Assembly: GCA_016647705.1 (NCBI GenBank) | Contig: CM028339.1 | Location: forward strand, 17,688,803 to 17,752,802 | DNA length: 64,000 nt | Direction of reading: 5' to 3' | Origin: Eucommia ulmoides | Taxonomy: Eukaryota; Streptophyta; Magnoliopsida; Garryales; Eucommiaceae | Part shown: one piece after another, positions 12,641 to 39,689 of the stretch | How the letters are laid out: each line of letters opens with the position of its first letter | How positions within the stretch are numbered: the first letter of the stretch is position 1 | Notes under the pieces: generated by a model | Seen by the model: only the letters and a program-made list of their open reading frames with translations | What the model was told of the DNA's origin: nothing | Database searches by the model: none | Translations under genes and position numbers: made by a program

Positions 12641-13928
12641 GATAATTCGTTATGTTCAAAATTTTAAGTGGATATCCGATAGGTGTAATTTGTCTATATA
12701 TTCTCAAACCGGTTTTGATAGTTTTCAAGTATTTTTATAGCGTTTTAATATGTTTTAATACATTTTTATTTTTTTTGTTATAAATTAGGTGTTTGGGGCG
12801 AAAATGGACGAAAATGGTCCATAAACATGCAAGTCGGTGGAAGAACGGTGGAGAAAAAAAGCAAAAAAATCAATATTCAGAACTTGCATCCACCGTTGTA
12901 GCGGTAGCGGTCAAAATGCAAAGAGTTGCTGAACTTTCCACCACTGCAGCGGTCATCCGGCAGAAAGCTGCTGACGTCCCCACCACTGCAGCGGTCTGAC
13001 ATTAGATCTTTTAGGATATTTCGGGATATTTCGGATCTTATATATATCCCCTCTTCTCCCCCAAACACTTAGAATGTTTTTTGGGAGGTCTTAAGAGCTC
13101 CAAGACCATTTAACCAACAGAAGATCACAATTCCAAGAAGGAGAAAACGATCTCGAAGCGGTTTTAGCGTCGGTTCTTCGGATAACGGCTAGTTTCCTCG
13201 TTTCTCTATTTTATTCTTAGTTTAGATGATTGTTTTATATATGTTTAGCTTGTTTCTAGTTAAAAACGTGTTTTGAATAAACCAATGTTTCGTTAATGGT
13301 TATTATATCTGATTGTGTTTACCGTTTTATTACAAGCTTGATATGCTTGTTATGGTATTAGGGTTGATTTTGAGAATACGAGATTTGATACTCGAGAGAG
13401 GTAACCCGTTCAAATATAACGTGATGATATAATAATCTGGGAGGGCGTTAGAAAGTATGCAATCCGTGAGGTTGGGGCGAGACTTATGTGACCAAAGTGT
13501 CGTATAGACGCTCAAGAGAGACTTCGGCGTTGACGCGAAATCACATATTCATTCACTTTATACTTGGGATAGGTAGTGAGTGAGATTTCAATACCTAGAT
13601 TGTTGGATAATGTGAATATTGTTAATGTAAACTAGATTGAAACGAACACGTTTAAGTGAATGAAGTTAATCCCTAGACAATTTACTCCCTTAAATATCAA
13701 TATTAGTATATTAGGTTAATTAGTTTAATTAGTTTAGTATATTAATTATATTAACAAAAATATAAATTATATCGCCTAGATAAAGTTAGGTTATAACAAT
13801 CGCGGTACTCAACGACTATCTAACCCAATCCCTGTGAATATGACAACCCCTACTCGTCCCACTATACTAAAACTTGACTCGTACACTTGCGGTGAAAGTA
13901 ACAACATAATTTTGCGCTACCAAGTTTT

Positions 13929-13946
13929 TGGCGCCATTGCCGAAAA
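13929..13946 (+). other. Primer-binding site, tRNA-Asp type (copy A)
   Basis: TGGCGCCATTGCCGAAAA lies 6 bp after the LTR end. It matches about 14 of 18 positions of the complement of the plant tRNA-Asp 3' end (TGGCGCCGTTGCCGGGGA). Confidence 0.75.
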
Positions 13947-14061
13947 TTAGTTTTTAGATTGTTGTTGATATTGTGAGTAAATAACTTGATTTTAATTTAG
14001 ACATTTATTGTGTTTATAATTTTTTCTTTGTAGTTTTGTTTCTCTTGCAAAGTACTTGAAG

Positions 14062-14883
14062 ATGTTAGATCAACAAGTGCTTTTGTATTTCTTTCAACGA
14101 GATTTCGAGCCATTTTATTGTGTTTGAGATCGATACAAGAAGTTGTTATTCCGGTTCCCCAATCATCGTTTTCCGAGGAAGTGTCAACTACTGAACTTCC
14201 ACGACGTGTTATTAGCCGCAACCAAATCATGGGTGGAAAGAGGAAACAATACCACCTCTTTCGACCAACTAACCACGAATAAAGCCTATTGGTTGTTGGA
14301 AGATATGGTCGAGTTCAATTTTCAGAATTGGAATTATTCAACAAGCTACCAACGCTTGAGGGATAGTTTCACCATTTCGGAGTCATGGATTGACACCCCG
14401 AACGAACATATGGAGTCTTCCCTCGCATTGGAAACCATGTTCGCTGAATTTATGGGGGAGACTCAGGCGTTTTGGAGGGAAACAAATGACCGGCTTTATG
14501 AGCATGAGGTTCGTCTTGACACTATTGAGACAACCTGCGTTGAAATTGATGAGACCATCAAGTCTCTTGAGACTAAAATCGGTCATCTTCTTTGCTTCGT
14601 TAAGGCTGAGTTCGAAGCGGTGGCACTAAGAGACGAACAAACCATATTTATTTGTGAAAGTCACCAGGAAGAACCAGATATAAGCGGAAGGAACTTAGGT
14701 AAGTTAAATGATTATTATTCGAATGAGACAGAAACCCAAGCATGGATCGACGATTGTGATTCTTCACCATTGAAGATCCACATTGTGATGCCACTACTGA
14801 TCCAAGAAGATCACATCTACGAGGATTCGATGTGGCTCATTTGTCCTTCGCCGCCGTTTGTAATGTTCTTTCATGCCCACTAA
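14062..14883 (+). pseudogene. gag-like ORF remnant of retroelement copy A
   Basis: The frame can start at ATG 14062 and reads as in copy B ('MLDQQVLL.FFQRDF'), then meets TGA at 14125-14127 where copy B has TGG (Trp). After that stop the same frame stays open for about 250 codons to 14883. It is hydrophilic, with a likely coiled-coil segment (residues around 'YEHEVRLDTIETT..' with heptad-like spacing) and a C-terminal 'HIYEDSMWL' block shared with copy B. I recognise no named domain. Position directly after LTR and PBS makes a gag-type product the best guess. No zinc knuckle, protease or RT was seen. Confidence 0.6.
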
Positions 14884-15113
14884 CTAAGTACATGAGCTGA
14901 TAAAAAGTCTTGTTGAAAGCTCGAGCCGATCAGAGCCAAATCTCGCCAAGCTTGAGGGCATTCAAAATCAAGACCCATATGTGGTGTTGTACGATACTTA
15001 CTATGGACGGAAGCCACTCTTTGACGAGTCTTTCTCTATGTCTGGCCGAAGGTAATAAACCAAGCGCTTCTTGGAAGGCAACCCAAGTTCAAAATAAACT
15101 AAACATTTTATTA

Positions 15114-16227: not shown

Positions 16228-16232
16228 ATGTT

Positions 16233-16913
16233 TGATATAGGTAAATCTGGTAAGGAGCATCACGGGGTCAAAAGTTCACCCAATTATAGAAAAACGACCC
16301 AAACGGGGGCTAAAGAATCCCTCAGTACTGAGCTGAGGTGTCCCCCAGCCGAACTGAGGGTCGTCGCAGTGAAGAGATCAGGACTGAAGAGCTGAGGTCC
16401 GACCTCCCGAACTGACAATCTGTGGCACCCTTTGCTCGCCACCATAGCACTCGGGAGTTCGTCAGGCCGGTGTGAGGCCATGGCCCATGGGCCTCCAATG
16501 ATGGGCTCAAAAGCCAGCCCAAAGGATTAGAGGGTTGACCTGTCTGCTTATTGGTTGTCCAGCAGATTAGGCTAATTAACCTAAGCTCCTCTCCCCTAAA
16601 TTCGCGGCACTAATCAAGTGTTGGCGCCTATAAATACATTGGGGCATCCACTGCCCAAAGGTACGTGACTACTACTGAATTCAATCTACACTTTTAGCCC
16701 TCTACTTCGGAATACTTATCCTCACGCCGGAGGGACTTACTGGGAACCACCCCAGTAGGTCTTTGTGCAGGTACTGTGTGTAGAAGATTGGAGCCCTGCT
16801 CGGAGCCCGTCACCACCCCTGAACTCAGTTTGTTGTTGTCTTATCGGTCACCCTCGCCCCAGGTATTCTTCCCGGACTATACTGTTGGCCAGCACCACTT
16901 TTTGGCATCAACA
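16233..16913 (+). repeat. 5' LTR of the Tat element
   Basis: TGATATAGG...GCATCAACA. It contains a TATA box and, before it, an AT-poor U3 with several CTGAGG/CCTCAG motifs. It aligns without gaps to 36091-36771. Confidence 0.95.
16629..16636 (+). promoter_or_regulatory. LTR TATA box
   Basis: TATAAATA in 'gcgccTATAAATAca'. The same box is at 36487-36494 in the 3' LTR. Transcription would be expected to start about 30 bp downstream. Confidence 0.75.
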
Positions 16914-16984: not shown

Positions 16985-17757
16985 ATGATCACAAGGTCTG
17001 GGAAGGAGATCCGCCAGGCTAATCAAGCGACCGCCACCAGTGGCAATCCACCACCCATGTCCGTGCAGGATATGTCTAGAGCTCCCAGGTCGGATCCTCC
17101 GGCGCCTCTTGCTGAGGGGATCCGCCTGTCCGCCATCCCACCTTCAGGGCTGGAAGGTCTGGCTGCCCAGCAAGCCTCCCAAGGGGGGCTTATCTCCCCC
17201 GAGCAGCGTGTTGGGCAGCCCTCAGGGGCTCCTAACGCAGCCCGCGTCGATCTTTTGGAGCGTCAGCTCGGTGAATTCCAAACCTTCTTCCAGATCGTCT
17301 TGGCCCGCTTGCCACCGGTCCCCCCGATGGATCTTCCTACAGTCCAAGTCGCGAGCAGGGAAGGTCGGGTGTTCGGGGGAGAAGAGACTATCATCCACAC
17401 CGACGGGCGTGACCCGCCTCCTCGGACTCGCCACATTTATCAGAGGACAGTGGAGGCGGCACCCCACGAGATCTTGGGATCTCTGTCTCCACCTCCGCCA
17501 CGCCGAAGGAGAGACGACCGAGCCGAATCACCTCTCGCCCATAGCGCTACCGTGTGGTCCGATCACCACCCCCACCGCTATCGGGAGGTCGACTCATATT
17601 CCCCACCACGACGGCTCCCGCCTCGGGCGGCTCCCAGTCAAGCCCAGGCCCAGCCTAGAGCTGAGGTGGTGGTGGAAAGGCGTTTAGCCGATATGGAGGC
17701 GGCCCTACAACAAATCCGGGGAGCTAGGGGCCCACCTGGACTTCCCTCGGAGGTGAG
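16985..17757 (+). pseudogene. gag: gag N-terminal part (Tat element), frameshifted
   Basis: The first ATG after the PBS is at 16985 ('MITRSGKEIRQ'). The frame runs through a Pro/Arg/Ser-rich, poorly conserved N-terminal region. Near 17750-17765 the Gag-like reading moves to another frame: the original frame runs out in a meaningless tail at 17839, while the conserved Gag continues from about 17761 in the next frame. A single-base indel in gag is the simplest explanation. Programmed frameshifting is unlikely because the shift is inside Gag, ahead of its main domain. Confidence 0.8.
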
Positions 17758-17760
17758 TCC

Positions 17761-19437
17761 CCTTTCATCAAAGAAATTCTGGAAGAGCCCTTGCCGGCGC
17801 GATACACCCACCCTCAAATGGTCCTCTATGACGGTATAACCGATCCAGCGGATCACCTATCCATCTTCAGGTCGTATATGGACCTACACACCGCATCGAT
17901 AGCCATGAGGTGTAAGGCATTCCCCCTCACCCTCACGGGGGCCGCCGGGGCTTGGTTCCGAACGTTGGCACCAGCTTCCATCTCTAATTTTCACGAGCTG
18001 GAATTACTCTTCTTGTCACGATTTGGGCGGTCGCGGCGTAGGCCAAAAACCATGGCTCACATCCTCGCACTCCAACAGTTGCCCGATGAGTCATTGGGAG
18101 ATTATGTGGAGAGGTTTTACAAAGAGATCATCGGATGTGATGAACTCAGTGACGTGGTCGCGATGAGCGCGTTCATCGACAGCCTGAAACATCGACGCCT
18201 CATGTATGACCTCTATTCTAACCCGGCTCCTACCTTGGATGCTGCCCTGGAGAGAGGCACAAGGTTCCACAACGCGGATGAGCGGGAAGCAGCGAGGAAG
18301 GACCAAGGAGGTGGTCACAAGAAGAAAGGAAAGGCAGAAGAAGGGCCAAACAAACAACATAGGTCCAAAAGGTTGCAGGCGGAAGGGAGGCTGGGTCCGT
18401 TACCCGGGGATCGGAGACTGTTTCCATCCCGGGAGAATCGCCAGCAGAACTACACGCCCCTCACTGTCTCGGTGGCCACCGTCCTGGCCGAAAATAAAGG
18501 GAGAGATTTTTTCCCTTCTCCTCCGCCACCCAACGGGAAACCGATGGGGAGGTCTATGGACAAGTATTGTGAGTTCCACAAGGACCGGGGACATTCCACC
18601 GAGAATTGTTTCCGACTTCGAGAAGAAATTGAAGCCCTCATTAGCAGAGGATACCTGGGACGTTACGTACGAAGGGACGCCCGAGCTCCCAAAGCAGAAG
18701 AACGCGATCCCCGCGAAGAACACAGGGGCCGCAGAAGAAGAAGAAATAAAAGTCACCCCCCTCCTAGGTCGGATGCAGGGAGGGGTGATGACGAGCACAG
18801 GATTGACGGCAAAATTAACGTCATCCACGGGGGATTAGGCCTTGGGGGAGAGACCCACTCCTCCAAGAAGAGGTACGAGCACAAAGCCAAAAGGAAGGCG
18901 AGCAAAGACGTTTTCGTGGTCAGCGCGGTGGACGCAGAGGAACACAATGTTATTTCGTTTAGTGAGGCAGACCTTCGGGACGTCCACGTACCCCACGATG
19001 ACGCCCTTGTCATCATGGCAATCATCCACCACTACAAGATGGGACGAATCCTGGTTAACGGTGGCAGCTCCGCTGATATTATCTTCAAATGGGCGTTCGA
19101 AAAGATGAGTGTGGATCCCAGCATGATAAAACCATCGACAGCCCCCCTAGTCGGTTTCGGAGGGGACGTTGTGAACGCCGCCGGGTGGGTCTCACTTCCT
19201 GTGATAGTCGGGGCCCATCCACGGACCTCCACTGTCTGGACCAGATTTCTGATCGTGGACAGGCCCTCGCCCTATAACGCAATCATGGGCCGGCCTACAG
19301 TGGCTGCCCTTAAAGCTGTCTGTTCCCCATACCACCAGGCGATGAAGTTCCCCACTGAAGGAGGTGTGGGAATTGTGAGGGGTGACCAGGAATCTTCCCG
19401 GTCTTGTGCGCGGAGGGCGTTGGAAAGGAAGAAATAG
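17761..19437 (+). pseudogene. gag main domain, zinc knuckle and protease (Tat element)
   Basis: The open frame begins with the retrotransposon Gag domain (about 17815-18260; conserved 'AWFRTL' and 'FLSRF'). A basic linker follows, then a single zinc-knuckle-like motif at about 18564-18606 of form C-x2-H-x4-H-x4-C, as is usual in this lineage. The aspartic protease region at about 18990-19290 contains 'NGGSSADI' at 19057-19080, where active relatives have Asp in place of the first Asn (D-G-G/D-T/S-G). The TAG at 19435-19437 ends this frame, but the same frame resumes directly as pol. The catalytic change suggests loss of protease activity. Confidence 0.85.
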
Positions 19438-21111
19438 CAATCACAGGTGGAGCCAGAGCTCGGAGGTTCCGAACTCATGGCTCTGGGCCGAGGGCTGGAG
19501 CCTGTGCCTATCGACGATCCTAGAGAGGAGGAGGCTGGTCCCCGACCTCATGAGGAACTGGAAGAGGTTTCCATACACCCAACCATCGGAGAGCGAACTG
19601 TCAGGATTGGTTCTCGTCTCCTGTCCGAACAGAGGGACGAACTCATCCAACTGCTCTGACGCAATTACGACATATTCGCCTAGTCCCATGACGAGCTACC
19701 AGGTGTTGATCCGAACGTGGCGATGCACCGCCTCCATGCTGATCCACACCATCCTCCCGTACGGCAAAAGCGACGGAAATTTCATCCGGAACGTCAGAAA
19801 TTAATTGAAGCTGAGATGGATAAATTGATCAGTTCTGGTGTTGTTGAAGAGGTCAAATTCCCGGACTGGTTGGCAAATGTGGTCCTGGCCCCCAAGGCTG
19901 GCAACAAGTGGCGCCTTTGTGTTGATTTCAAAGATCTGAATAAAGCTTGCCCGAAGGACTTCTTCCCTCTGCCCAGGATTGACATCGTCATCGACGCCAC
20001 TGCGGGACATGAGCGCCTAAGTTTCCTTAACGCTTATGCTAGGTACAATCAAATCCCACTATTCCCCCCCGATAAGAGCAAAACGTCGTTCATCACCGAT
20101 AGGGGTACATACTGCTACAAAGTAATGCCGTTCGGTTTACGCAACGCCGGAGCCACTTATCAACGGTTGGTGAACAAAATGTTCAAGGAGGAAATCGGAC
20201 GGACTATGGAGGTTTACATTGATGACATGTTGGTCAAGAGCGCAAGAGCCCTTAACCACACACAACATCTCCACGACTGCTTCGAGAAACTCCGGGTCCA
20301 CCGCATGAAGCTCAACCCAAACAAATGTATCTTTGGGGTCTCTGCAGGGAAGTTCCTGGGGTACATGGTCTCCCAGCGCGGCATCGATGCCAACCCCGAC
20401 CAACTACATGCAATCCTTGGAATGGCCTCCCCTAGGAACAAGAAGGAGGTACAGATGTTGACGGGGAGACTCGCCGCACTCAACCGCTTTATATCCCGAG
20501 CATCAGAAAAGTGTTTGCCGTTCTTCAAAGTGCTAAGGGGCAGCGGCAGTTTTGGGTGGACGGACGAGTGCGAGTCAGCTTTCCAAGCACTCAGGAACTA
20601 TTTGTCCTCTGCTCCCCTACTCAGCACACCCAAGGAGGGGGAGACCCTTTACCTGTATATCGTCGCGTCTGAGACAGCGGTGAGTGCCGCTCTTGTGAGG
20701 GATGACACCGGGGTCCAGCATCCGGTCTTTTACTCTAGCAGGGTCCTCTCGGACGCCGAAACAAGGTACACTAGGTTCGAGAAACTGGCGTACGCTCTAC
20801 TAGTGGCCTCCCAAAAATTGAAACAATATTTCCAAGCACACCAGATCGTCGTCCTCACGGATCAGCCAATAAGACAAATATTACATTCACCAGACATCTC
20901 AGGGCGATTGATGAAGTATAGCCTCGAGCTGGGTTAGTTTCATATTGAGTACCGCCCTAGGACGGCCATTAAGGGTCAAGTCCTAGCCGATTTCATCGCC
21001 GAGCTCACATTTCCTGAAGATCCCGATCCGCACACTGATCAATCCGAAGCGAGAAGGGCGGGAGAGGGGGAGCTGCAGAAGAAATCCGGCCCGGATAACG
21101 GTCTGATGACA
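19438..21111 (+). pseudogene. pol: pol: reverse transcriptase and RNase H (Tat element)
   Basis: After stops at 19657-19659 (TGA) and 19681-19683 (TAG, at a position where Tat pols have the Trp of a Phe-Ala-Trp motif), the RT domain is uninterrupted. It includes 'WRLCVDFKDLNKA', 'YKVMPFGLRNAGATYQRL' and the catalytic Y-I-D-D at 20215-20226. The RNase H domain follows ('HPVFYSSRVLSDAETRY', 'LTDQPIRQIL') and is cut by TAG at 20935-20937, after which the same frame continues ('FHIEYRPRTAIKGQ'). The first acidic position expected in a canonical RNase H is not evident, in line with the second RNase H taking over in Tat elements (family knowledge). Confidence 0.9.
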
Positions 21112-22857
21112 TAGAAGCTGTTTACCGATGGATCGTCCAACACCAACGATTGTGGGGCAGGAATGGTGCTCGTTGCCCCAAGCAACGAAGAAGTTGAGTA
21201 TGCCCTGAGACTGAGGTTTAGAGCAACTAATAACGAGGCCGAGTACGAGGCTCTGCTTGCTGGGCTTCGTATGGCCAGGGAATTTAATGTGACGACGTTG
21301 TCCGTCTTTTGTGACTCGCAACTGGTTGTCAGCCAGGTCAATGGGGATTACTTGGCAAAAGACACTAGCATGACTGCGTATCTTGAGAGAGTCAAAACGC
21401 TGATGAAGGAGTTCGAAGGAATCAATGTATCCAAAATACCGCGCGAGGAGAACAAGCATGCCGATGCTTTGGCAAACCTTGCTTCGGCAGTAGCGTCAAC
21501 CTTGAAGCGAAGTGTGCCCGTTGAATATCTCGATATTCCGAGCACAACAACGTCTGATCATATAGCTCCGATCTGTGAGCTCAATGACCGTCCCACTTGG
21601 ATGGATCCCATCCGTAAGTACCTGGAAGACGGAACGCTCCCCGACGAGCGCAACGAAGCAAGAAGGATGCGATACAGATCAGCCCGATATTGCATTCTGG
21701 ACGGAGTACTGTATCGTCGCTCCTTCTCTGGGCCATACTCACGGTGTCTGCGGCCGGAAGAGGCCGACTACGTAATGAGGGAGACCCATGAGGGAATCTG
21801 TGGCAACCACTTGGGGGGCAGAGCCTTGGCGGGCAAACTCCTCCGCCAAGGATATTTCTGGCCCAAAATGTTGGAAGATACGAGTAAGTTCGTTAAAAAA
21901 TGCGATAAGTGCCAACGCTTCAGTCCCTACCCTCATCTACCTCCAACGGCCATGGTGCCCATGGCAAGTCCGTGGCCCTTTGCCCAGTGGGGAATCGATT
22001 TGTTAGGCCCTTTTCCGCAGGCCACTGGTCAAAGAAAGTTCCTCGTGGTCGCCATCGACTACTTCACCAAGTGGGTGGAAGCCGAACCACTGGCCCGCAT
22101 TACCAAGGAAAGAATCAGGGACTTTGTCTGGAAGTCCATGGTGTGCCGATTCGAGATCCCGAGGGTGATCGTGTCCGACAACGGCACTCAATTTGACAAC
22201 GATTTGTTTACGTCTTTCTGTTCCGGCTTGGGAATCCGAACGCACTTTGCGTCCCTGGGCCATCCCCAAGCTAATGGACAGGTAGAAGTCACGAATCGGA
22301 CGGTCCTACATGGTTTAAAAACCAGGCTCGACAAAGCCAAAGGGAGATGGGTGGAGGAACTTTACCCTGTCCTTTGGGCCTACCACACCACCTCCCGGAC
22401 CCCGACTGGCGAGACACCGTTCGCAATGACATTCGGATCCGAATCCGTAATTCCTACGAAAATTGGATTACCAACCTTCCATACATCATCTAGTGGGCAG
22501 GACCAGTAGACGAACGACGCAATGCTGGCCCTTAACCTGGACCTTTTAGAAGAACGGCGGGAGAACGCTCGGGTACGCCAGGCGGTATACCAGCAACGGG
22601 CATCCCGATACTATGACAGAAGGGTACGACCACGGCATTTTGACGTGGGAGACTTTGTCCTCAGAAAGGTGACCCTCGCGACAAATGAGCCAAACGCAGG
22701 AAAGTTGGCCGCCAGCTGGGAGGGACCTTATCGCGTGATAAAAATTGCAAGGCCGGGTACGTATGAACTCGAAACTGAGGAAGGCGTTCCGCTGCGACAC
22801 CCATGGAACGCTGACCATCTCAAGCAATACCACTATCAGACAGGGGTCATTTTGTAA
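21112..22857 (+). pseudogene. pol: pol: archaeal-type RNase H and integrase (Tat element)
   Basis: TAG at 21112-21114 stands where the strand-opening Trp of the second RNase H is usual. Then come 'LFTDGSS', 'NNEAEYEALLAGL', 'FCDSQLVV' and 'KHADALANLAS', giving the D-E-D-D-type acidic residues. Integrase follows with H-H-C-C zinc finger (..HEG..GNHLGG..KKCDKCQRF) and an intact D,D(35)E triad: Asp 21997-21999, Asp 22177-22179, Glu 22285-22287. TAG at 22507-22509 separates the core from the C-terminal end ('DFVLRKV..GKLAASWEGPY'), which closes with TAA at 22855-22857. Confidence 0.92.
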
Positions 22858-23291: not shown

Positions 23292-25833
23292 CTATTCCTC
23301 CCCAGAAGCATCGTCGACGCCCACGACGTCTACATTGGTGTCTTCCTCGGCCTCAGCCTCAGCCTCCTCGTTGCCAACACCTTCAGCACCAACTTCGCGT
23401 GCTGGACCCTCAGTCTCCCTTGCAACAGGCTGCTCCGCCGTTAGCCCAACCTGCTGGGTAAATTACATCCCAACACCCGAACTGTCAAATTCCGGGTAGT
23501 GGCGCTGGAGGTAGAGGATCGTGGCCTGGTGCCCGTCTTCCATGAATTCGGCAGCAAGCTCGTACTTCAAATTTTCGAATTCCTCGCTGGCTTTATAGCC
23601 CTCAACAGCTTTATGCTCCGCCCGACGGATGGCCTTTCCCCTCTGTTGCTCTTCCTTTTTCAGTCTCCTCTCCAACTCCTCCACTCTCTTCTCCAGCTGT
23701 ACCTTCTGCCTCTCAGCGTCATCCCGCTCTTGGGTTATGAGGACATGCCTGGCTTGTAGGCCCTGATGAGCCTGGGCGGCAAGCTGGAGGTCATCCGTCA
23801 GACGGTTCACCTTGGCCTCAGCAGCATTCTTCTCTGACCTCAGCATGGCCTCCTCCATGGCACTCTCCGATATTCGGTCAAAAACCACGGATATTCGAAG
23901 CATGCCCTGCAAAAAACAAACAAAAAACAATGTTATCATACTTAGCAACATTTAGCTACACAATGCAGAGCAAAGAAGTGCCAGGGTGAGAACGCGTTAC
24001 CGCCAGTTGGTCGCAGATGGCCTGACGCATCAGGTTGCCAGTGCTCTCCTCCTCCATCAATGTTTTGTCGTTGGGCGGCGTCATGCGGCGGAGATAGCCC
24101 GGCATCACCTCTGGGCTCTTCAGCAGAGCACGGTCAGCCGGCAGCCCGGTATTCGCCACCCCAAAGAAGGATCCGTCAACAGTCAGCTCAGATGATGCCC
24201 CGGGCACAAACTTCGCCCTCTTCGAGGACTTGTGCTTTTATGCCTCCCCTCATGGGTTTTCCTCTTCCCCTTGTCCGAACAGAGGGGAAAAGAGTCGCCG
24301 CTCACATTCTGCACGGATTGCCGAGACCCGGATTTCGATTGGGGCGTGTCTCGGATCACAACGCCTGGCAGGGCAGGGGAGTGACTGCGGGCTGGCGTCC
24401 CGAGCGGTTGGGCGGATTCCTTCTCTACTTTTTCTACCCCGGCCGCTTCCTTTGCCTTCTTCTTCTCCAGCAGCATACGAACTGCCATTGTCTTATCCAT
24501 AGCTGCAATATTTAATAAGATTTTTAGATATTCTTCCGTCCAGGCCGGCAGCATCCGGTCCTATACAGGGATATCTGCATGAATCGAGCGCAGCACACAT
24601 AAAGATTACCAAGTACGCGCAATTGACATAGCAGGAAAGTCCTTACCGTTGTCTGAGTCGAGAAAGAAATCTGGTGAGGTGGAGACGTCCGGTGGAGAAA
24701 ATCAGAAAGCTGAGAATAGCTGCGACGCGATCAAGGTGTTTACGTCCTTGAAGGCAGTCCTCAACACCTTGTCTCTCTGCTCGCAAATCACTCGGCCCGG
24801 CTCTGGTCTTTTATTCTTCGGCGTCTCCTTAGCTGCAGGAAGTCACGGAAACAAATGTATCAGTGCATAGACCATACTAAAAACCCCCAACCGAACCCTC
24901 CCCTTACGGGGTCCCAGCCTTACCAACTCTTCTCCATTCCATCTGGAGAGGGTATCTTCCTTCTTCTTCCAGGCCGGCCTGCCAACCGCTCCCCCCGATA
25001 TAGAAGAACTGGGGCTTCCATCGATGAATGGAAGAGTCCAGGTCCTTCAAGAAAGTCGACCTGGACGAAATGTAACACCACCCAGCGCCCCGAGGGAGTG
25101 GCTTAAGGAAGAACAGAGCCTTGAAAAGATCAATGCTCGGCTCGAGTCCCTCGGCCTGGAAGATGATGTACGAAGCCACCAGGGCTCAAATACCGTTCGG
25201 AGCAATTTGTGACGGACACAAATGATACTCCTCACAGACGGCCCTGACCCACCAGTGGAGGAGAAACCGAAGACCACCCTCCAGTTGTTTCCTATAAACT
25301 GTCATAAACCCAGCTAGCGGCATACAAGCCCGGTCGTCGGGCCCAGGAACAAGTGTCGTGACCTCCTCCGGAATGAAGAACTCACTCCGACAGGAGAGCA
25401 CGGCTTCCTCGTTCATGGTTGTTTTAATTTTCCAAACCGGACTCGAGGGCGGGACCTTTACAAACAACTTCTCCGGCCCGGTATTGTGCACCTCATTTTC
25501 ACGAAGCAACTGGGGAATGGAGACAACGGTGTGGATCTCCACCACCGTGACGGGTTCGGGAGGGACGCCGACCCCAGCGTCAAGTGATGTGGAGGCCCCA
25601 CCACTCTCGTCGGCACGACTCACCACGAAGGCACGGTCCTCCAGGCATGACTGGATAGCACCGCTCGTTTCGTGGATCCTCGCCATAGCACTCGAGGAGG
25701 CGTCTCCCGGAGCGGGGCGCCTCTCCACCCTAAACTGGGGGGAGCTGGCGGACGACCGGTCCGAGGAGCCGGACTCCGATCCGTCGGAAGAACCAGAAGA
25801 GGAAAACGAAGAGTACGAAGGGGTTCCCGACAT
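23292..25833 (-). pseudogene. Antisense intron-containing gene of the Tat element ('putative gypsy type transposon' / Transposase_28-like), decayed
   Basis: Four exons fit on the minus strand: 25833-24924, 24832-24647, 24574-24001 and 23906-23292. Introns of 91, 72 and 94 bp start GTAAGG, GTAAGG and GTAACG and end TGCAG, TGCAG and TTTGCAG. Exon 1 holds an acidic Ser-rich N-terminus and a domain ('MTVYRKQLEGGLRF', 'LHWWVRAVCEEYHLCPSQ', 'GWCYISSR') that I recognise as the plant 'putative gypsy type transposon' family (PF04195-like). Exon 4 is a long coiled coil ending in an acidic Glu/Ala-rich tail. Splice phases agree through exon 2. Decay: TGA 25188-25186, TGA 24704-24702, TAG 24563-24561, a one-base frameshift near 24236, and TAA 23465-23463. 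The ATG at 25833 is preferred over 25944 because the latter overlaps the TATA box. An antisense ORF between pol and the 3' LTR is known in relatives such as maize Grande. Its function is unknown. Confidence 0.8.
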
Positions 25834-25943
25834 TCTGTTCGGACACAAGGAAGCCGAGAAAACCAAAACCGAGTACCAGTACCGGGGAGGCAGACGGGGT
25901 TCTGGAATATTCGCAAAGTTCAAATGAATGGTAGGGGCCACCA

Positions 25944-25949
25944 TTTATA
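25944..25949 (-). promoter_or_regulatory. TATA box of the antisense gene
   Basis: TATAAA on the minus strand, about 110 bp upstream of the preferred ATG (25833). It implies a start site near 25918 and a leader of about 85 nt. Confidence 0.6.
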
Positions 25950-26021
25950 AAAGCCAAAGGTGCCCAGATGAAAGGTCGCAAAGGCCAATGGCTGGGGACG
26001 CCTTGGTTTGCACGCCCCTAC

Positions 26022-26104
26022 CACGTGGCACCCATCTAACGATGGTGGAGTGACCTATCACACCACTCAGCAGATGGGGCACGTGTGCCGTGTTCTGTCA
26101 CGTG
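26022..26104. promoter_or_regulatory. Three CACGTG G-boxes upstream of the antisense TATA box
   Basis: Palindromic CACGTG occurs at 26022-26027, 26080-26085 and 26099-26104, 73-160 bp upstream of the antisense TATA box. A CCAAT motif (plus strand) lies at about 25985. G-boxes bind bZIP and bHLH factors in plants (light, ABA and stress responses). Whether these act is unknown. Confidence 0.55.
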
Positions 26105-29100
26105 GGAAGGGGAAGGCTCTCAAACTTCCCACCCTGAAAATTTTCTAAGGCACGGAAATGGCCGAGCTCATGACCCTACGGGCTCTCAGCTCGGACATAT
26201 TCAAAAGGGGAAAGACTCTCAAACTTCCCACCCTGAAAATTTTTTAAGGCATGGAAATGGCCGAGCTCACGACCCTACGGGCTCTCAGCTCGGACAAAAT
26301 TCAAAAAGGGAAGGCTCTCAAACTTCCCACCCTGAAAATTTTCTAAGGCATGGAAATGACCGAGCTCACGACCCTACGGGCTCTCAGCTCGGACAAAATT
26401 CACAAGGGGAAGGCTATCACACTTCCCACCCTAAAACTTTTCTAAGGCATGGAAATGGCCGAGCTCACGACCCTACGGGCTCTCAGCTCGGACAAAATTC
26501 AAAAGGGGAAGGCTCTCAAACTTCCCACCCTGAAAATTTTCTACGGCATGGAAATGGCCGAGCTCACGAACCTACGGGCTCTCAGCACGGACATATTCAA
26601 AAGGGGGAAGGCTCTCAAACTTCCTACCCTGAAAATTTTCTAAGGCATAGGAATGGCCGAGCTCACGACCCTACGGGCTCTCAGCTCGGACAAAATTCAC
26701 AAGGTGGAAGGCTCTCAAACTTCCCACCCTGAAAATTTTCTAAGGCGTGGTCATGGCCGAGCTCACGACCCTACGGGCTCTCAGCTCGGACAAAATTCAA
26801 AAGGGGAAGGCTCTCAAACTTCCCACCCTGAAAATTTTCCAAGGCATAGAAATGGCCGAGCTCACGACCCTACGGGCTCTCAGCTCGGACAAACTTCAAA
26901 AGGGGAAGGCTCTCAAACTTCCCACCCTGAAAATTTTCTACGGCATGGGAATGGCCGAGCTCACGACCCTACGGGCTCTCTGCTCGAACAACATCCCAAG
27001 AGGGAAGCCTCTCCACCATTCCCACACTCAAACAGTTCAGCGGCCGTGACACTGGCCGGCCTCCCGACTTGCCGGACTCTCAGCTCGGCCAACTTGCCAA
27101 AAAAAAAAAAAAAAAAAAGGGGGAAGGCTCTCAAACTTCCCACCCTGAAAATTTTCTAAGGCATGGAAATGACCGAGCTCACGACTCTACAGGCTCTCAG
27201 CTCGGACAAAATTCAAAAGGGGAAGGCTCTCAAACTTCCCACCCTGAAAATTTTCTACGGCATGGAAATGGCCGAGCTCACGACCCTACGGGCTCTCAGC
27301 TCGGACAAAATTCAAAAGCGGAAGGCTCTCAAACTTCCCACCCTGAAAATTTTCTAAGGCATGGAAATGGCCGAGCTCACGATCCTACGGGCTCCCAGCT
27401 CGGACAAAATTCAAAGGGGGAAGGCTCTCAAACTTCCCACCCTGAAAATTTTCTCAGGCATGGAAATGACCGAGCTCACGACCCTACGGGCTCTCAGCTC
27501 GGACAAAATTCACAAGGGGAAGGCTCTCAAACTTCCCACACTGAAAATTTTCTAAGGCATGGAAATTGCCGAGCTCACGACCCTACGGGCTCTCAGCTCG
27601 GACAAAATTCAAAAGGGGAAGGCTCTCAAACTTCCCACCCTGAAAATTTTCCAAGGCATGGAAATGGCCAAGCTCACGACCCTACGGGCTCTCAGCTCGG
27701 ACAAACTTCAAAAGGGGAAGGCTCTCAAACTTCCCACCCTAAAAATTTTCTACGGCATGGGAATGGCCGAGCTCACGACCCTACGGGCTCTCAGCTCGGA
27801 CAACATCCCAAGAGGGAAGCCTCTCCACAATTCCCACACTCAAATAGTTCAGCGGCCGTGACACTGGCCGGGCTCCCGACTTGCCGGACACTTAGCTCGG
27901 CCAACTTGCCAAACCAAAAAAAAAAAAAAAAAAAAGGGGAAGGCTCTCAAAATTCCCACCATGAAAATTTTCTAAGGCATGGAAATGACCGAGCTCAAGA
28001 ACCTACGGGCTCTCAGCTCGGACATATTCAAAAGGGGGAAGGCTCTCAAACTTCCCACCCTGAAAATTTTCTAAGGCATGGGAATGGCCGAGCTCACGAC
28101 CCTACGGGCTCTCAGCTCGGACAAAATTCACAAGGGGGAAGGCTCTCAAACTTCCCACCCTGAAAATTTTCTAAGGCATTGCCATGGCCGAGCTCACGAC
28201 CCTACGGGCTCTCAGCTCGGACAAAATTCAAAAGGGGAAGGCTCTCAAACTTCCCACCCTGAAAGTTTTCCAAGGCATAGAAATGGCCGAGCTCACGACC
28301 CTACGGGCTCTAAGCTCGGAAAAACTTCAAAAGGGGAAGGCTCTCAAACTTTCCACCCTGAAAATTTTCTACGGCATGGGAATGGCCGAGCTCACGACCC
28401 TACGGGCTCTCTGCTCGAACAACATCCCAAAAGGGAAGCCTCTCCACCATTCCCACACTCAAACAGTTCAGCGGCCGTGACACTGGCCGGGATCCCGACT
28501 TGCCAGACTCTCAGCTCGGCCAACTTGCCAAGAAAAAAAAAAAAGGGGGGGGGGGGGGGGAGAAGGCTCTCAAAACTTCCCACTCTGAAAATTTTCTAAG
28601 GCAAGGAAATGACCGAGCTCACGACCCTACGGGCTCTCAGCTCTGACTAAATTCACAAGGGGAAGGCTCTCACACTTCCCACCCTGAAAATTTTCTAAGG
28701 CATGGAAATGGCCGAGCTCACGACCCTACGGGCTCTCAGCTTGGACAAAATTCAAAAGGGGAAGGCTCTCAAACTTCCCACCCTGAAAATTCTCTAAGGC
28801 ATGGAAATGGCCGAACTCACGACCCTACGGGCTCTCAGCTCGGACAAAATTCAAAAGGGGAAGGCTCTCAAACTTCCCACCCTGAAAATTTTCTAAGGCA
28901 TGGAAATGGCCGAGCTCACGACCCTACGGGCTCCCAGCTCGGACAAAATTCAAAGGGGGAAGGCTCTCAAACTTCCCACCCTGAAAATTTTCTAAGGCAA
29001 GGAAATGACCGAGCTCGCGACCCTACGGGCTCTCAGCTCGGACAAAATTCAGAAGGGGAAGGCTCTCACACTTCCCACCCTGAAAATTTTCTAAGGCACG

Positions 29101-32100
29101 GAAATGTCCGAGCTCACGACCCTACGGGTTCTCAGCTAGGACAAAATTCAAAATGGGAAGACTCTTGAACTTCCCACCCTGAAAATTTTCTACGGCATGG
29201 AAATGGCCGAGCTCACGACCCTACGGGCTCTCAGCTCGGACAAAATTCAAAAGGGGAAGGCTCTCAAACTTCCCACCCTGAGAATTTTCTAAGGCATGGA
29301 AATGGCCGAGCTCACGACCCTACGGGCTCCCAGCGCGGACAAAATTCAAAGGGGGAAGGCTCTCAAACTTCCCACCCTGAAAATTTTCTAAGGCATGGAA
29401 ATGACCGAGCTCACGACCCTACGGGCTCTCAGCTCGGACAAAATTCACAAGGGGAAGGCTCTCAAACTTCCCACACTGAAAATTTTCTCAGGCGTGGAAA
29501 TGGCCGAGCTCACGACCCTACGGGCTCTCAGCTCGGACAAAATTCAAAAGGGGAAGGCTCTCAAACTTCCCACCCTGAAAATTTTCGAAGGCATGGAAAT
29601 GGCCGAGCTCACGACCCTACGGGCTCCCAGCTCGGACAAAATTCAAAAGTGGGAAGGCTCTCAAACTTCCCACCCTGAAAATTTTCTAAGGCATGGAAAT
29701 GACCGAGCTCGCGACCCTACGGGCTCTCAGCTCGGACAAACTTCAAAAGGGGAAAGCTCTCACACTTCCCACCCTGAAAATTTTCTAAGGCATGGAAATG
29801 GCCGAGCTCACGAGCCTACGGGCTCCCAGCTCGGACAAAATTCAAAGGGGGAAGGCTCTCAAACTTCCCACCCTGAAAATTTTCTAAGGCATGGAAATGG
29901 CCGAGCTCACGACCCTACGGGCTCTCAGCTCGGACAAAATTCAAAAGGGGAAGGCTCTCAAACTTCCTACCCTGAAAATTTTCTAAGGCATGGAAATGGC
30001 CGAACTCACGATCCTACGGGCTCTCAGCTCGGACAAAATTCAAAAGGGGAAGGCTCTCAAACTTCCCACCCTGAAAATTTTCTAAGGCATGGAAATGGCC
30101 GAGCTTACGACCCTACGGGCTCCCAACTCGGACAAAATTCAAAGGGGGAAGGCTCCCAAACTTCCCACCCTGAAAATTTTCTAAGGCATGGAAATGACCG
30201 AGCTCACGACCCTACGGGCTCTCAGCTCGGACAAAATTCAAAAGGGGAAGGCTCTCAAACTTCCCACCCTGAAAATTTTCGAAGGCATGGAAATGGCCGA
30301 GCTCACGACCCTACGGGCTCCCAGCTCGGACAAAATTCAAAGTGGGAAGGCTCTCAAACTTCCCACCCTGAAAATTTTCTAAGGCATGGAAATGACCGAG
30401 CTCGCGACCCTACGGGCTCTCAGCTCGGACAAAATTCAAAGGGGGAAGGCTCTCAAACTTCCCACCCTGAAAATTTTCTAAGGCATGGAAATGACCGAGC
30501 TCACGACCCTACGGGCTCTCAGCTCGGACAAAATTCACAAGGGGAAGGCTCTCAAACTTCCCACACTGAAAATTTTCTCAGGCGTGGAAATGGCCGAGCT
30601 CACGACCCTACGGGCTCTCAGCTCGGACAAAATTCAAAAGGGGAAGGCTCTCAAACTTCCCACCCTGAAAATTTTCGAAGGCATGGAAATGGCCGAGCTC
30701 ACGACCCTACGGGCTCCCAGCTCGGACAAAATTCAAAGTGGGAAGGCTCTCAAACTTCCCACCCTGAAAATTTTCTAAGGCATGGAAATGACCGAGCTCG
30801 CGACCCTACGGGCTCTCAGCTCGGACAAACTTCAAAAGGGGAAGGCTCTCACACTTCCCACCCTGAAAATTTTCTAAGGCATGGAAATGGCCGAGCTCAC
30901 GACCCTACGGGCTCCCAGCTCGGACAAAATTCAAAGGGGGAAGGCTCTCAAACTTCCCACCCTGAAAATTTTCTAAGGCATGGAAATGGCCGAGCTCACG
31001 ACCCTACGGGCTCTCAGCTCGGACAAAATTCAAAAGGGGAAGGCTCTCAAACTTCCTACCCTGAAAATTTTCTAAGGCATGGAAATGGCCGAACTCACGA
31101 CCCTACGGGCTCTCAGCTCGGACAAAATTCAAAAGGGGAAGGCTCTCAAACTTCCCACCCTGAAAATTTTCTAAGGCATGGAAATGGCCGAGCTCACGAC
31201 CCTACGGGCTCTCAGCTCGGACAAACTTCAAAAGAGGAAGGCTCCCAAACTTCCCACACTGAAAATTTTTAAGGCATGGAAATGGCCGAGCTCACGACCC
31301 TACGGGCTCTCAGCTCGGACAAAATTCAAAAGGGGAAGGCTCTCAAACTTCCCACCCTGAAAATTTTCGAAGGCATGGAAATGGCCGAGCTCACGACCCT
31401 ACGGGCTCCCAGCTCAGACAAAATTCAAAGTGGGAAGGCTCTCAAACTTCCCACCCTGAAAATTTTCTAAGGCATGGAAATGACCGAGCTCACGACCCTA
31501 CGGGCTCTCAGCTCGGACAAAATTCACAAGGGGAAGGCTTTCAAACTTCCCACATTGAAAAGTTTCTAAGGCATGGAAATGACCGAGCTAACGACCCTAC
31601 GGGCTCTCAGCTCGGACAAAATTCAAAAGGGGAAGGCTCTCAAACTTTCCACCCTAAAAATTTTCGAAGGCATGGAAATGGCCGAACTCACGACCCTACG
31701 GGCTCCCAGCTCGGACAAAATTCAAAGGGGGAAGGCTCTCAAACTTCCCATCCGGAAAATTTTCTAAGGCATGGAAATGGCCGAGCTCACGAACCTACGG
31801 GCTCTCAGCTCGGACATATTCAAAAGGGGGAAGGCTCTCAAACTTCCCACCCTGAAAATTTTCTAAGGCGTGAGAATGGCCGAGCTCACGACCCTACGGG
31901 CTCTCAGCTCGGACAAAATTCACAAGGGGGAAGGCTCTCAAACTTTCCACCCTGAAAATTTTCTAAGGCATGGCCATGGCCGAGCTCCCGACCCTACGGG
32001 CTCTCCGCTCGGACAAAATTCAAAAGGGGAAGGCTCTCAAACTTCCCACCCTGAAAATTTTCCAAGGCATAGAAATGGCCGAGCTCACGACCCTACGGGC

Positions 32101-33515
32101 TCTCAGCTCGGACAAAATTCACAAGGGGAAGGCTCTCACACTTCCCACCCTGAAAATTTTCTAAGGCATGGAAATGGCCGAGCTCACGACCCTACGGGCT
32201 CTCAGCTCGGACAAAATTCAAAAGAGGAAGACTCTCAAACTTCTCACCCTGAAAATTTTCTACGGCATGGAAATGGCCGAGCTCACGACCCTACGGGCTC
32301 TCAGCTCGGACAAAATTCACAAGGGGGAAGGCTCTCAAACTTCGCACCCTGAAAATTTTCTAAGGCATGGCCATGGCCAAGCTCACGACTTTACGGGCTC
32401 TCAGCTCAGACAAAATTCAAAAGGGGAAGGCTCTCAAACTTCCCACCCTGAAAATTTTCTAAGCCATGGAAATGGCCGAACTCACGACCCTACGGGCTCC
32501 CAACCCGGACAAAATTCAAAGGGGGAAGGCTCTCAAACTTCCCATCCTGAAAATTTTGTAAGGCATGGAAATGACCGTGCTCACGACCCTACGGGCTCTC
32601 AGCTCGGACAAAATTCACAAGGGGAAGGCTCTCAAACTTCCCACACTGAAAATTTTCTAAGGCATGGAAATGGCCGAACTCACGACCCTACGGGCTCCCA
32701 ACCCGGACAAAATTCAAAGGGGGAAGGCTCTCAAACTTCCCATCCTGAAAATTTTGTAAGGCATGGAAATGACCGAGCTCACGACCCTACGGGCTCTCAG
32801 CTCGGACAAAATTCAAAAGGGAAAGGCTCTCAAACTTCCCACCCTGAAAATTTTCTAAGGCATGGAAATGGCCGAGCTCACGACTCTACGGGCTCTCAGC
32901 TCGGACATATTCAAAAGGCGGAAGGCTCTCAAACTTCCCACCTTGAAAATTTTCTCAGGCATGGGAATGGCCGAGCTCACGACCCTACGGGCTCTCAGCT
33001 CGGACAAAATTCACAAGGGGGAAGCCCCTCAGACTTCTCACCCTGAAAATTTTCTAAGTCATGGAAATGACCGAGCTAACGACCCTATGGGCTCTCAGCT
33101 CGGACAAAATTCAAAAGGGGAAGGCTCTCAAACTTCCCACCCTAAAAATTTTCGAAGGCGTGGAAATGGCCGAGCTCACGACCCTACGGGCTCCCAGCTC
33201 GGACAAAATTCAAAAGGGGAAGGCTCTCAAACTTCCCATCCGGAAAATTTTCTAAGGCATGGAAATGGCCGAGCTCACGAACCTACGGGCACTCAGCTCG
33301 GACATATTCAAAAGGGGGAAGGCTCTCAATCTTCCCACCCTGAAAATTTTCTACGGCATGGGAATGGCCGAGCTCACGACCCTACGGGCTCTCAGCTCGG
33401 ACAACATCCCAAGAGGGAAGCCTCTCCACAATTCCCACACTCAAACAGTTCAGCGGCCGTGAGACTGGCCGGGCTCCCGACTTGCCGGACACTCAGCTCG
33501 GCCAACTTGCCAAAC

Positions 33516-33553
<38 letters not shown>

Positions 33554-34964
33554 AAGGGGAAGGCTCTCAAAATTCCCACCATGAAAATTTTCTAAGGCAT
33601 GGAAATGACCGAGCTCACGACCCTACGGGCTCTCAGCTCGGACAACATCCCAAGAGGGAAGCCTCTCTACAATTCCCACACTCAAACAGTTCAGCGGCCG
33701 TGACACTGGCCGGGCTCCCGACTTGCCGGACACTTAGCTCGGCCAACTTGCCAAACCAAAAAAAAAAAAAAAAAAAGGGGAAGGATCTCAAAATTCCCAC
33801 CATGAAAATTTTCTAAGGCATGGAAATGACCGAGCTCACGATCCTACGGGCTCTCAGCTCGGACAAAATTCACAAGGGGAAGGCTCTCAAACTTCCAACA
33901 CTGAAAATTTTATAAGGCATGGAAATGGCCGAGCTCACGACCCTACGGGCTCTCAGCTCGGACAAAATTAAAAAGGGGAAGGCTCTCAAACTTCCCACCC
34001 TGAAAATTTTCTAAGGCATGGAAATGGCCGAGCTCACGACCCTACGGGCTCCTAGCTCGGACAAAATTCAAAGGGGGCAGGCTCTCAAACTTCCCACTCT
34101 GAAAATTTTCTAAGGCATGGAAATGACCGAGCTCACGACCCTACGGGCTCTCAGCTCGGACAAAATTCACAAGGGGAAGGCTCTCAAACTTCCCACACTA
34201 AAAATTTTATAAGGCATGGAAATGGCCAAGCTCACGACCCTACGGGCTCTCAGCTCGGACAAAATTCAAAAGGGGAAGGCTCTCAAACTTCCCACCCTGA
34301 AAATTTTCTAAGGCATGGAAATGGCCGAGCTCACGACCCTACGGGCTCTCAGCTCGGACAAACTTCAAAAGAGGAAGGCTCTCAAACTTCCCACCCTGAA
34401 AATTTTCTAAGGCATGGAAATGGCCGAGCTCACGACCCTACGGGTTCTCAGCTCGGACATATTCAAAAGGGGGAAGGCTCTCAAACTTCCCACCCTGAAA
34501 ATTTTCTAAGGCATGGGAATGGCCGAGCTCACGACCCTACGGGCTCTCAGCGTAGACAAAATTCACAAGGGGGAAGGTTCTCAAATTCCCACACTGAAAA
34601 TTTTCTAAGGCATGGCCATGGCCGAGCTCACGACCCTACGGGCTCTCAGCTCGGACAAAATTCAAAAGGGAAAGGCTCTCAAACTTTCCACCCTGAAAAT
34701 TTTCCAAGGCATGGAAATGGCCAAGCTCACGACCCTACGGGCTCTCAGCTCGGACAAACTTCAAAAGGGGAAGGCTCTCAAACTTCCCACCCTGAAAATT
34801 TTCTATGGCATGGGAATGGCCGAGCTCACGACCCTACGGGCTCTCAGCTCGGACAACATCCCAAGAGGGAAGCCTCTCCACCATTCCCACACTCAAACAG
34901 CTCAGCGGCCGTGACACTGGCCGGGATCCCGACTTGCCGGACTCTCAGCTCGGCCAACTTGCCA

Positions 34965-34996
<32 letters not shown>

Positions 34997-35912
34997 GGAA
35001 GGCTTTCAAACTTCCCACCCTGAAAATTTTCTAAGGCATGGAAATGACCGAGCTCACGACCCTACAGGCTCTCAGCTCGGACTAAATTCACAAGGGGAAG
35101 GCTCTCACACTTCCCACCCTGAAAATTTTCTAAGGCATGGAAATGGCCGAGCTCACGACCCTACGGGCTCTCAGCTCGGACAAAATTCAAAAGGGGAAGG
35201 CTCTCAAACTTCCCACCCTGAAAATTTTCGAAGGCATGGAAATGGCCGAACTCACGACCCTACGGGCTCTCAGCTCGGACAAAATTCAAAAGGGGAAGGC
35301 TCTCCAACTTCCCACCCTGAAAATTTTCTAAGGCATGGAAATGGCCGAGCTCACGACCCTACGGGCTCTCAGCTCGGACATATTTAAAAGGGGGAAGGCT
35401 CTCAAACTTCCCATCTTGAAAATTTTCTAAGGCATGGGAATGGCCGAGCTCACGACCCTACGGGCTCTCAGCTCGGACAAAATTCACAAGGGGGAAGGCT
35501 CTCAAACTTCCCACCCTGAAAATTTTCTAAGGCATGGCCATGGCCGAGCTCACGACCCTACGGGCTCTCAGCTCGGACAAAATTCAAAAGGGAAAGGCTC
35601 TCAAACTTCCCACCCTGAAAATTTTCCAAGGCATGGAAATGGCCGAGCTCACGACCCGACGGGCTCTCAGCTCGGACAAACTTCAAAAGGGGAAAGCTCT
35701 CAAACTTCCCACCCTGAAAATTTTCTACGGCATGGGAATGGCCGAGCTCACGACCCTACGGGCTCTCAGCTCGGACAACATCCCAAGAGGGAAGCCTCTC
35801 CACCATTCCCACACTCAAACAGTTCAGCGGCCGTGACACTAGTCGGGATCCCGACTTGCCGGACTCTCAGCTCGGCCAACTTGCCAAAAAAAAAAAAAAA
35901 AAAAAAAAAAAA
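26105..35912. repeat. About 9.8-kb tandem array of 99-bp monomers with seven poly-A-ended variant units
   Basis: A 99-bp unit is repeated roughly 95-100 times. Landmarks in each are 'ATGGCCGAGCTCACGACCC', 'TACGGGCTCTCAGCTCGGAC', 'AAGGCTCTCAAACTTCCC' and 'CCTGAAAATTTTCTAAGGC'. Neighbours differ by a few substitutions. Seven longer variants ('aacatcccaagagggaagcctc' in place of the usual spacer, then 'cagcggccgtgacactggcc') end in A-runs at about 27101, 27917, 28532, 33518, 33757, 34966 and 35886. Because 99 is a multiple of three, long open frames (up to 625 codons) arise in two plus-strand frames. They carry no recognisable domain and are regarded as by-products. Tandem repeats in the 3' region of Tat elements are known sources of satellite DNA. 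Confidence 0.95.
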
Positions 35913-36090: not shown

Positions 36091-36771
36091 TGATATAGGT
36101 AAATCTGGTAAGGAGCATCACGGGGTCAAACGTTCACCCAATTATAGAAAAACGACCCAAACGGGGGCTAAAGAACCCCTCAGTACTGAGCTGAGGTATC
36201 CCCCAGCCGAACTGAGGGTCGTCGCAGTGAAGAGATCAGGACTGAAGAGCTGAGGTCCGACCTCCCGAACTGACAATCTGTGGCACCCTTTGGTCGCCAC
36301 CATAGCACTTGGGAGTTTGTCAGGCCGGTGTGAGGCCATGGCCCATGGGCCTCCAGTGATGGGCTCAAAAGCCAGCCCAAAGGATTAGAGGATTGACCTG
36401 TCTGCTCATTGGTTGTCCAGCAGATTAGGCTAATTAACCTGAGCTCCTCTCCCCTAAATTCGCGGCACTAATCAAGTGCTGGCGCCTATAAATACACTGG
36501 GGCATCCACTGCCCAAAGGTACGTGACTACTACTGAATTCAATCTACACTTTTAGCCCTCCACTTCGGAATACTTATCCTCACGCCGGAGGGACTTACTG
36601 GGAACCACCCCAGTAGGTCTTTGTGCAGGTACTGTGTGTAGAAGATTGGAGCCCTGCTCGGAGCCCGTCACCACCCCTAAACTCAGTTTGTTGTTGTCTT
36701 ATCGGTCACCCTCGCCCCAGGTATTCTTCCCGGACTATACTGTTGGCCAGCACCACTTTTTGGCATCAACA
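36091..36771 (+). repeat. 3' LTR of the Tat element
   Basis: It is co-linear with 16233-16913, with 14 substitutions counted by eye and no gaps. It is followed by the target duplication ATGTT (36772-36776). Confidence 0.95.
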
Positions 36772-36776
36772 ATGTT

Positions 36777-37685: not shown

Positions 37686-37955
37686 GAGTTGTTTACATTT
37701 CTAATATTTTTTAAAAAGCAAAATTACTGAAATAGTATTGTTTTGAACTTATTGACGAAACTAATGTCACCCGGAGATGTGATCCCCGGGTTCGTGGGCC
37801 CGACCATATACTCGGGGTTCGGAACCCCGGATATACAAAAAAAAAAAATTATTTTTTTCTTTTCTTTTTTTCGTTTTGGGGGGTATACCCGGGGTTCAGT
37901 ACCCTAGGTTCTAATTAGAACCCCGGGGTATTGAACCCCGGGTTTAAACCGCCCC

Positions 37956-37987
<32 letters not shown>

Positions 37988-38522
37988 AACAACGTTTTTG
38001 TCCAAGAAATTTTTAAAGTTTTCGGCAATTTTGAGTTGATTAACGGTGGTCTATCGATATTTTAAATAAATTTAATTTTTTTGTGCATAAATTACATTCA
38101 AAACACTCCATAATACTTTTACAACACTAAAAACGAACAAGTGGATAAATTTTAAAAAATCGTCAAAATTGACCAACTGAGCTGTTTCGATAACGACAGA
38201 ATTTTTTTCGACAATTTAAAATTAACAAAAGATTGCATGTCTGTAACAAAAATGAACCAAATTTTTTGTATATAAACTATGTTCATAACACTACATAACA
38301 AAACTTAGAACACTAAAAACGGACTAATGAATTTTTTTTAAATAATCGTCAAAGTTGGTCGGATGAGTTGTTTCAATGACGATATAGTTTTTTTGAAAAC
38401 TTTGAATTAACAAAAAAAGGTTGTCTATCCATAACAAAAATGAACCTGATTTTTTTTGCATACAAATTACGTTCATAACGCTAAATAATAAAATCGAGAA
38501 TACCAAAAAACAGATAAGGGTC
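37686..38522. repeat. Left terminal inverted repeat of the MULE
   Basis: It pairs with 38890-39689. It contains a GC-rich nested palindrome at about 37885-37950 (acccggggttc..gaaccccgggt) and a C-run/A-run junction at about 37958-37990. Confidence 0.85.
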
Positions 38523-38543
38523 CTCATCCGGCTCCACTTAGAG

Positions 38544-39509: not shown

Positions 39510-39540
<31 letters not shown>

Positions 39541-39689
39541 ATTTTTTTTTGTTTTTGTTTTTGTATACCTGGGATTTCGAACTCCGGGTATAGGGCTGGG
39601 CCCACGAACGCGGGATCACATCTCTAGATTCAAAATAATGTTATTTCACTAATTTTGTTTTTTAAAAATATTCGAAACGTAAACAACTT
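38890..39689. repeat. Right terminal inverted repeat of the MULE
   Basis: Inverted copy of 37686-38522. It includes the GC-rich palindrome at about 39435-39500 and a long A-run at 39510-39537. Confidence 0.85.

Follow-up and report, generated by a model that had tools for sequence, protein, structure and literature searches.

A predicted spliced antisense gene with its own TATA box in a Retand-like retrotransposon of Eucommia ulmoides

The element and its antisense gene

The window analyzed here, a stretch of 64,000 nucleotides from Eucommia ulmoides, harbors a long Ty3/gypsy retrotransposon flanked by target-site duplicates, and an antisense gene is located between pol and the 3′ LTR of this element, on the strand opposite to gag-pol (Table 1). 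Gag, reverse transcriptase, RNase H, a second RNase H, and integrase are all present, with broken frames. Alignment of the two LTRs over 681 bases shows 14 differences (12 transitions and 2 transversions; K80 0.021), and at an assumed substitution rate of 1.3e-8 per site and year, the insertion would be approximately 0.8 million years old. The RVT_3-type second RNase H (73.9 bits) precedes the Integrase_H2C2 and rve domains, in agreement with the Tat retrotransposon named in the original prediction. According to the available sections of the literature, a second, archaeal-type RNase H in this position, after the first and ahead of integrase, is shared by Ogre and Retand, and TRP28 is a Retand feature (PMC6317226). 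An antisense TRP28 open reading frame (ORF) between pol and the 3′ LTR, characteristic of Retand, was also found, exon 1 of a sibling copy scoring above the domain cut-off. By its domain order and its antisense TRP28, the sequence thus places the element in the Tat clade, as Retand-like.

Table 1. Features of the retrotransposon and of its antisense gene (positions in the window; copy counts refer to 30 aligned family copies)
Feature	Position	Strand	Remarks
Ty3/gypsy element, Tat clade, Retand-like	16233-36771	+ (gag-pol)	20,539 bp
5′ LTR	16233-16913	+	target-site duplicate ATGTT at 16228-16232
gag frame	17728-19437	+	PF03732
reverse transcriptase and RNase H frame	19684-20937	+	domain matches
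second RNase H (RVT_3 type), then integrase	21115-22509	+	domain matches
exon 4, long helical part, acidic tail, final stop	23292-23906	-	premature stop in window copy
intron 3, 94 bp, phase 0	23907-24000	-	GT 29/30, AG 29/30
exon 3, basic NLS-like stretch	24001-24502	-	1 base shorter here than in 27/30 copies
intron 2, 144 bp after correction, phase 1	24503-24646	-	GT 30/30, AG 29/30
exon 2	24647-24832	-	frame and dN/dS
intron 1, 91 bp, phase 1	24833-24923	-	GT 30/30, AG 30/30
exon 1 (coding part), TRP28/PF04195 domain	24924-25833	-	stop interrupts window copy
TATA box TATAAAT	25943-25949	-	present in 30/30 copies
three CACGTG (G-box) sites	26022-26104	-	starts 26104, 26085, 26027; putative role
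array of 99-bp unit, ~91 units	26107-35819		directly upstream of antisense gene
3′ LTR	36091-36771	+	target-site duplicate ATGTT at 36772-36776

The gene had been predicted to comprise four minus-strand exons joined by three GT-AG introns of 91, 72, and 94 bp. GT and AG occur at all three pairs of ends; the architecture and introns 1 and 3 are retained, whereas intron 2 ends elsewhere. With this one correction, the sequence bears out the earlier observation as real. The window copy itself is broken, a point that the original prediction did not make clear: premature stops interrupt exons 1, 2, and 4, and this copy is, as are most others, a pseudogene, a dead member whose insertion carries LTRs differing by 2%.

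The predicted TATA box is present and is followed upstream by G-boxes, lying between it and the tandem array, of which 18 of the 30 aligned copies have three and 12 have two. In the copies, too, array sequence is found on the upstream side of the gene, the 9-mer density to one window unit reaching at least 0.5 in 28 of 30, with 0.34 in L039 and 0.14 in L051 as exceptions, and the array and G-box region may drive the antisense transcription. The array (9 kb) stretches the region from pol to the 3′ LTR to 13.2 kb; this length and the number of units exceed the 2.9-6.6 kb and the 85 units given for recent Retand elements in the available part of PMC11963269. Long open frames in the array, e.g., 29395-31272, need not be genes because 99 is a multiple of three.

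Intron positions in family copies and in other TRP28 loci

The genome of the window (947 Mb in 391 contigs) was searched for copies of the gene, and at least 40 scored matches among 664 candidates, the window copy included, are 88-100% identical over essentially the whole gene; 30 of the 40 were aligned, one (L061) was taken separately, and nine were left out. All 30 aligned copies contain the introns, with 91 and 144 bp for introns 1 and 2 in every copy and 85 to 128 bp for intron 3, and each splice dinucleotide is kept in 29-30 of them. Family copies with coding intron regions or unconserved exon frames, which would speak against the original prediction, were sought among the 30 and were not found: the unspliced frame is stopped by codon 335 at the latest in every copy. 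One exon is off by a single base in five copies including that of the window, and five further copies show length differences between 3 and 18 bases, all divisible by three.

Beyond this family, PF04195 was found at a minimum of 150 places scored among 2445 candidates in the genome, and the best 30 loci, among which only one pair (L024-L027) is more than 80% alike, were surveyed for the best donor-like site 120-240 nt after the domain. A GT donor of intron 1 lies 178-183 nt after PF04195 in 13 of the 30 against 1.5 expected (binomial 6.5e-10), the band having been fixed after inspection and the expectation assuming uniform placement; two loci with a donor-like site lacking GT in this band (L001 and L023) are excluded from the 13, and the other 15 have no donor at that place. 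Since its donor keeps the same spacing to the TRP28 domain across these loci, intron 1 is old. Intron 3 lies at the same place in one other family (L028), and only candidate donors for it were found elsewhere. Furthermore, TATAAA is found 610-680 nt before PF04195 in 8 of the 30 loci compared with 16 of 570 other upstream windows (Fisher p = 6e-6), and 6 of these 8 are among the 13 that have the donor of intron 1; the distance from TATA box to domain in the window family is 653.

The end of intron 2 required a choice among several acceptors. The acceptor at 24575, which had given the originally predicted intron of 72 bp, is rejected, for it is followed in frame by a stop at 24563-24561 in all 30 copies (28 TAG and 2 TAA), and the original exon set is open in none of them. 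The TAG at 24561, when itself taken as the acceptor, leaves exon 3 with stops in all 28 copies that have this AG. By contrast, acceptor 24503 keeps the frame, and with it three of the 30 natural copies are open through four exons for 737 codons, the other 27 having stops or frame changes. Exon 3 is stop-free in 21 of 30 copies with acceptor 24533, in 21 of 30 with 24482, and in 20 of 29 with 24503, and 24503 is preferred over the other two only because it matches other TRP28 loci. Its counterpart occurs in 9 of the 13 loci sharing the intron 1 donor, all in alignable TRP28 families (L010-L013, L020, L022, L024, L028, and L030). The pattern, defined after the loci had been inspected, consists of an AG and, two bases further on, an ATG-like codon, at the point where exon 3 begins; it is present in 9 of 9 loci readable downstream, compared with a mean of 0.6 and a maximum of 4 of 9 in 1000 runs of Markov resampling of the same stretches, and in 2 of the remaining 17 PF04195 loci. 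An intron 2 donor fitting the donor pattern used was found in 5 of the 9. The four other loci with the intron 1 donor (L003, L008, L009, and L017) constitute a very divergent TRP28 group, and none of them has a counterpart of the intron 2 acceptor within 1500 bases on each side of PF04195. The AG of acceptor 24503 is lost in one of the 30 copies and, among seven sequences of close relatives, in L061 and L065; other splice sites are also gone in some decayed copies among these seven.

The 72 bp between the two acceptors (24574-24503, minus strand) contain the stop in all 30 copies, and behind it an ATG opens a conserved in-frame peptide. Fifty-one bases of this stretch reach 98% identity in L061, where their 17 codons show no silent change and conservation exceeds that of silent exon sites; in L028 the identity of these 51 bases is 73%, and 8 of the changes are silent and 6 are not. 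The stretch may represent an alternative isoform, a second ORF, or a splice signal, and a regulated alternative acceptor would be the simplest guess for its conservation. Both acceptors would then be used as a switch, 24575 yielding a short TRP28-only protein ending at 24563-24561 and 24503 yielding the full protein, a rather unlikely but coherent arrangement that modifies the explanation preferred below and does not replace it. The AG at 24575 and the stop behind it, each kept in 30 of 30 copies, and the unusual conservation of the 72 bp in L061 and L028 argue for it. Against this, the conserved stop reads CAG in L064, intron 2 is shorter and lacks the stretch in other loci, and the conservation may reflect just branch-point and acceptor signals.

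Selection on the spliced frames and origin of the gene

The exon frames were further examined for traces of selection, read with intron 2 ending at 24503. Among the aligned copies, alignment columns were counted separately for the first, second, and third codon position: those with the minor base in at least four copies number 14, 8, and 48, those with the minor base in two or three copies 58, 43, and 59, and singleton columns 143, 113, and 175. The bias to position 3 is thus stronger among the changes shared by four or more copies (48 of 70) than among singletons (175 of 431; Fisher p = 1.5e-5), and older changes therefore show selection on the protein more than private ones. The dN/dS comparison proposed with the original prediction points in the same direction, with values of 0.07-0.26 in the spliced frames of all four exons: 0.19, 0.22, 0.26, and 0.24 for exons 1-4 against L028, another family with exons 58-67% identical and only 77 codons compared in exon 4, and 0.20, 0.07, 0.11, and 0.18 against L061, whose exons are 86-93% identical. 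Off-frame values in the same comparisons, the only two on which dN/dS rests, are 0.67-4.02. Introns 1-3 are 59, 51, and 45% identical to those of L028 and 92, 83, and 76% identical to those of L061, so that in the latter intron 1 shows no lower similarity than the exons do. Taken together, these patterns indicate purifying selection on the protein in the lineages that spread.

The antisense RNA rather than the protein might be what matters, pairing with the sense RNA and feeding or dampening silencing, the frames being by-products. Double-stranded RNA is raised as a possible role in the available text of a 2020 review (PMC7264820), yet low dN/dS in the spliced frames and not off frame, in the two comparisons made, indicates selection on the protein and renders an RNA-only function improbable; the RNA may have a role in addition to the protein.

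Introns and a TATA box of its own make the gene resemble a host gene, and it could have been captured from the host recently, with introns and promoter included. We regard such a recent capture as very improbable, given that TRP28 occurs at no fewer than 150 genomic places, in families below 80% similarity save for one pair among the 30 best loci, that the same intron 1 donor recurs in 13 of these 30, and that, according to Vicient in the available part of PMC11963269, TRP28 has no similarity outside the elements. An ancient capture may have taken place.

Finally, short GT-AG pairs are easy to find and the window copy is full of stops, but a chance pattern in decayed sequence is hardly credible in view of the dN/dS values confined to spliced frames, the codon-position bias, the conservation of splice dinucleotides, the donor recurrence, and the acceptor counterparts, by which the structure exceeds chance at the sequence level.

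The predicted product and its relation to known antisense genes

A stop inside the domain holds the PF04195 score of the window copy to 12.9 bits (E 0.13), below the cut-off of 26.2, and the predicted domain is instead recovered in exon 1 of a sibling copy with 30.8 bits. With this sibling exon as query, no relative was found at E 0.001 among 5.8 billion predicted proteins. In an open natural copy, exon 3 encodes a basic NLS-like stretch, KRKTHEGRHKKHKSSKRAKF, which by eye is largely kept in L028. A coiled coil had also been predicted: a single-sequence model of the uninterrupted part of the window's exon 4 (mean pLDDT 85; pTM 0.45) consists of two helices, of 104 and 29 residues, which agrees with a long helix, whereas heptad periodicity is not significant (P 0.063).

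The evidence supports a spliced antisense gene with a TATA box in a Tat-clade element; conservation and selection back the predicted structure, and splicing and promoter activity are deduced from the sequence. We consider it probable that this Retand-like element carries an old spliced antisense accessory gene under purifying selection, with a putative nuclear regulatory product. The gene would be transcribed on the minus strand from its own TATA promoter, and removal of three introns in phases 1, 1, and 0 would give a product of 737 codons combining the TRP28 domain of exon 1, the basic stretch of exon 3, and the long helix of exon 4. Such a protein could be nuclear, DNA-binding, and self-associating, and might regulate transcription or chromatin of the element itself, by analogy with HBZ of HTLV-1. 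The introns would persist because new copies arise from sense RNA, in which the splice signals are reversed. As the split gene is old and preserved by selection, it probably helps the element.

Several of these characteristics have precedents. In the available part of Vicient 2025 (PMC11963269), recent Retand clusters all have antisense ORFs, 97% of them have TRP28, about half of the elements have tandem arrays, and Smc and similar (helical) domains are described in antisense ORFs distinct from that of TRP28. The gene in the window is similar in its orientation, its location between pol and the 3′ LTR, its TRP28 domain, and its tandem array; however, the ORFs are listed singly there, from ORF Finder, whereas here they are exons of one predicted gene, and a word search of the main text of that article did not find the word "intron". 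Maize Grande gene23, likewise antisense between pol and the 3′ LTR, is transcribed from its own promoter and has a nuclear product, and the present gene is likened to it by description (PMC7264820, available text); the same review asks that spliced antisense transcripts be sought. HBZ is also a spliced antisense gene of a retroelement, with a nuclear product as proposed here, but it starts in the 3′ LTR whereas the present TATA box is internal, and no sequence relation is claimed (PMC10186651, available text). Ogre provides an intron in a Tat-clade element (PMC6317226 and PMC12786077, available sections), and the 2025 review, as far as its available text goes, describes plant LTR elements as generally intron-free, Ogre and EVADE being the exceptions named (PMC12786077).

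Therefore, the gene is less unusual for a retroelement than originally supposed, antisense TRP28 ORFs and an own promoter having been described in Retand and Grande (PMC11963269 and PMC7264820, available parts), and the conserved introns remain as its distinctive trait. The antisense TRP28 gene type, the own promoter, and the tandem arrays are already published for this group in the sources covered. Introns in this gene were not found in the literature searched, which includes PMC3091746 and PMC12477314 and covers the field partially, so that an earlier report is possible; as far as this literature shows, a conserved multi-intron gene joining TRP28 and helical parts is new. A broader reading, plausible but held with somewhat less than even confidence, is that the single antisense ORFs published for Retand (TRP28 and Smc-type helical) all belong, as exons, to one spliced gene of ancient origin, with phases 1-1-0 and a TATA promoter of its own. 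Such a gene would be the plant equivalent of the spliced antisense regulators of retroviruses, and a conserved alternative acceptor might switch it between a TRP28-only and a full-length protein.

Almost all recently active Retand elements encode antisense TRP28 proteins, which have so far been recorded as individual ORFs. Should the gene be spliced, the ORF maps in print would show it in fragments and a cloned single ORF would provide an incomplete protein, and splice-junction reads would give a strand-specific read-out of when the elements express it. The gene would furthermore be a clear case of introns surviving retrotransposition through lying antisense to the genomic RNA.

Other repeats occur in the window as well. 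Large inverted repeats at 37687-40241, with arms such as 38563-38884 and 39920-40241 that are 93% complementary, point to an element of the foldback type close to the 3′ side of the retrotransposon. Two inverted copies of another repeat, approximately 72% identical, flank the region at a distance (13300-15097 and 44915-46804), and a tRNA-Met (CAT) gene is predicted on the minus strand at 5811-5882.
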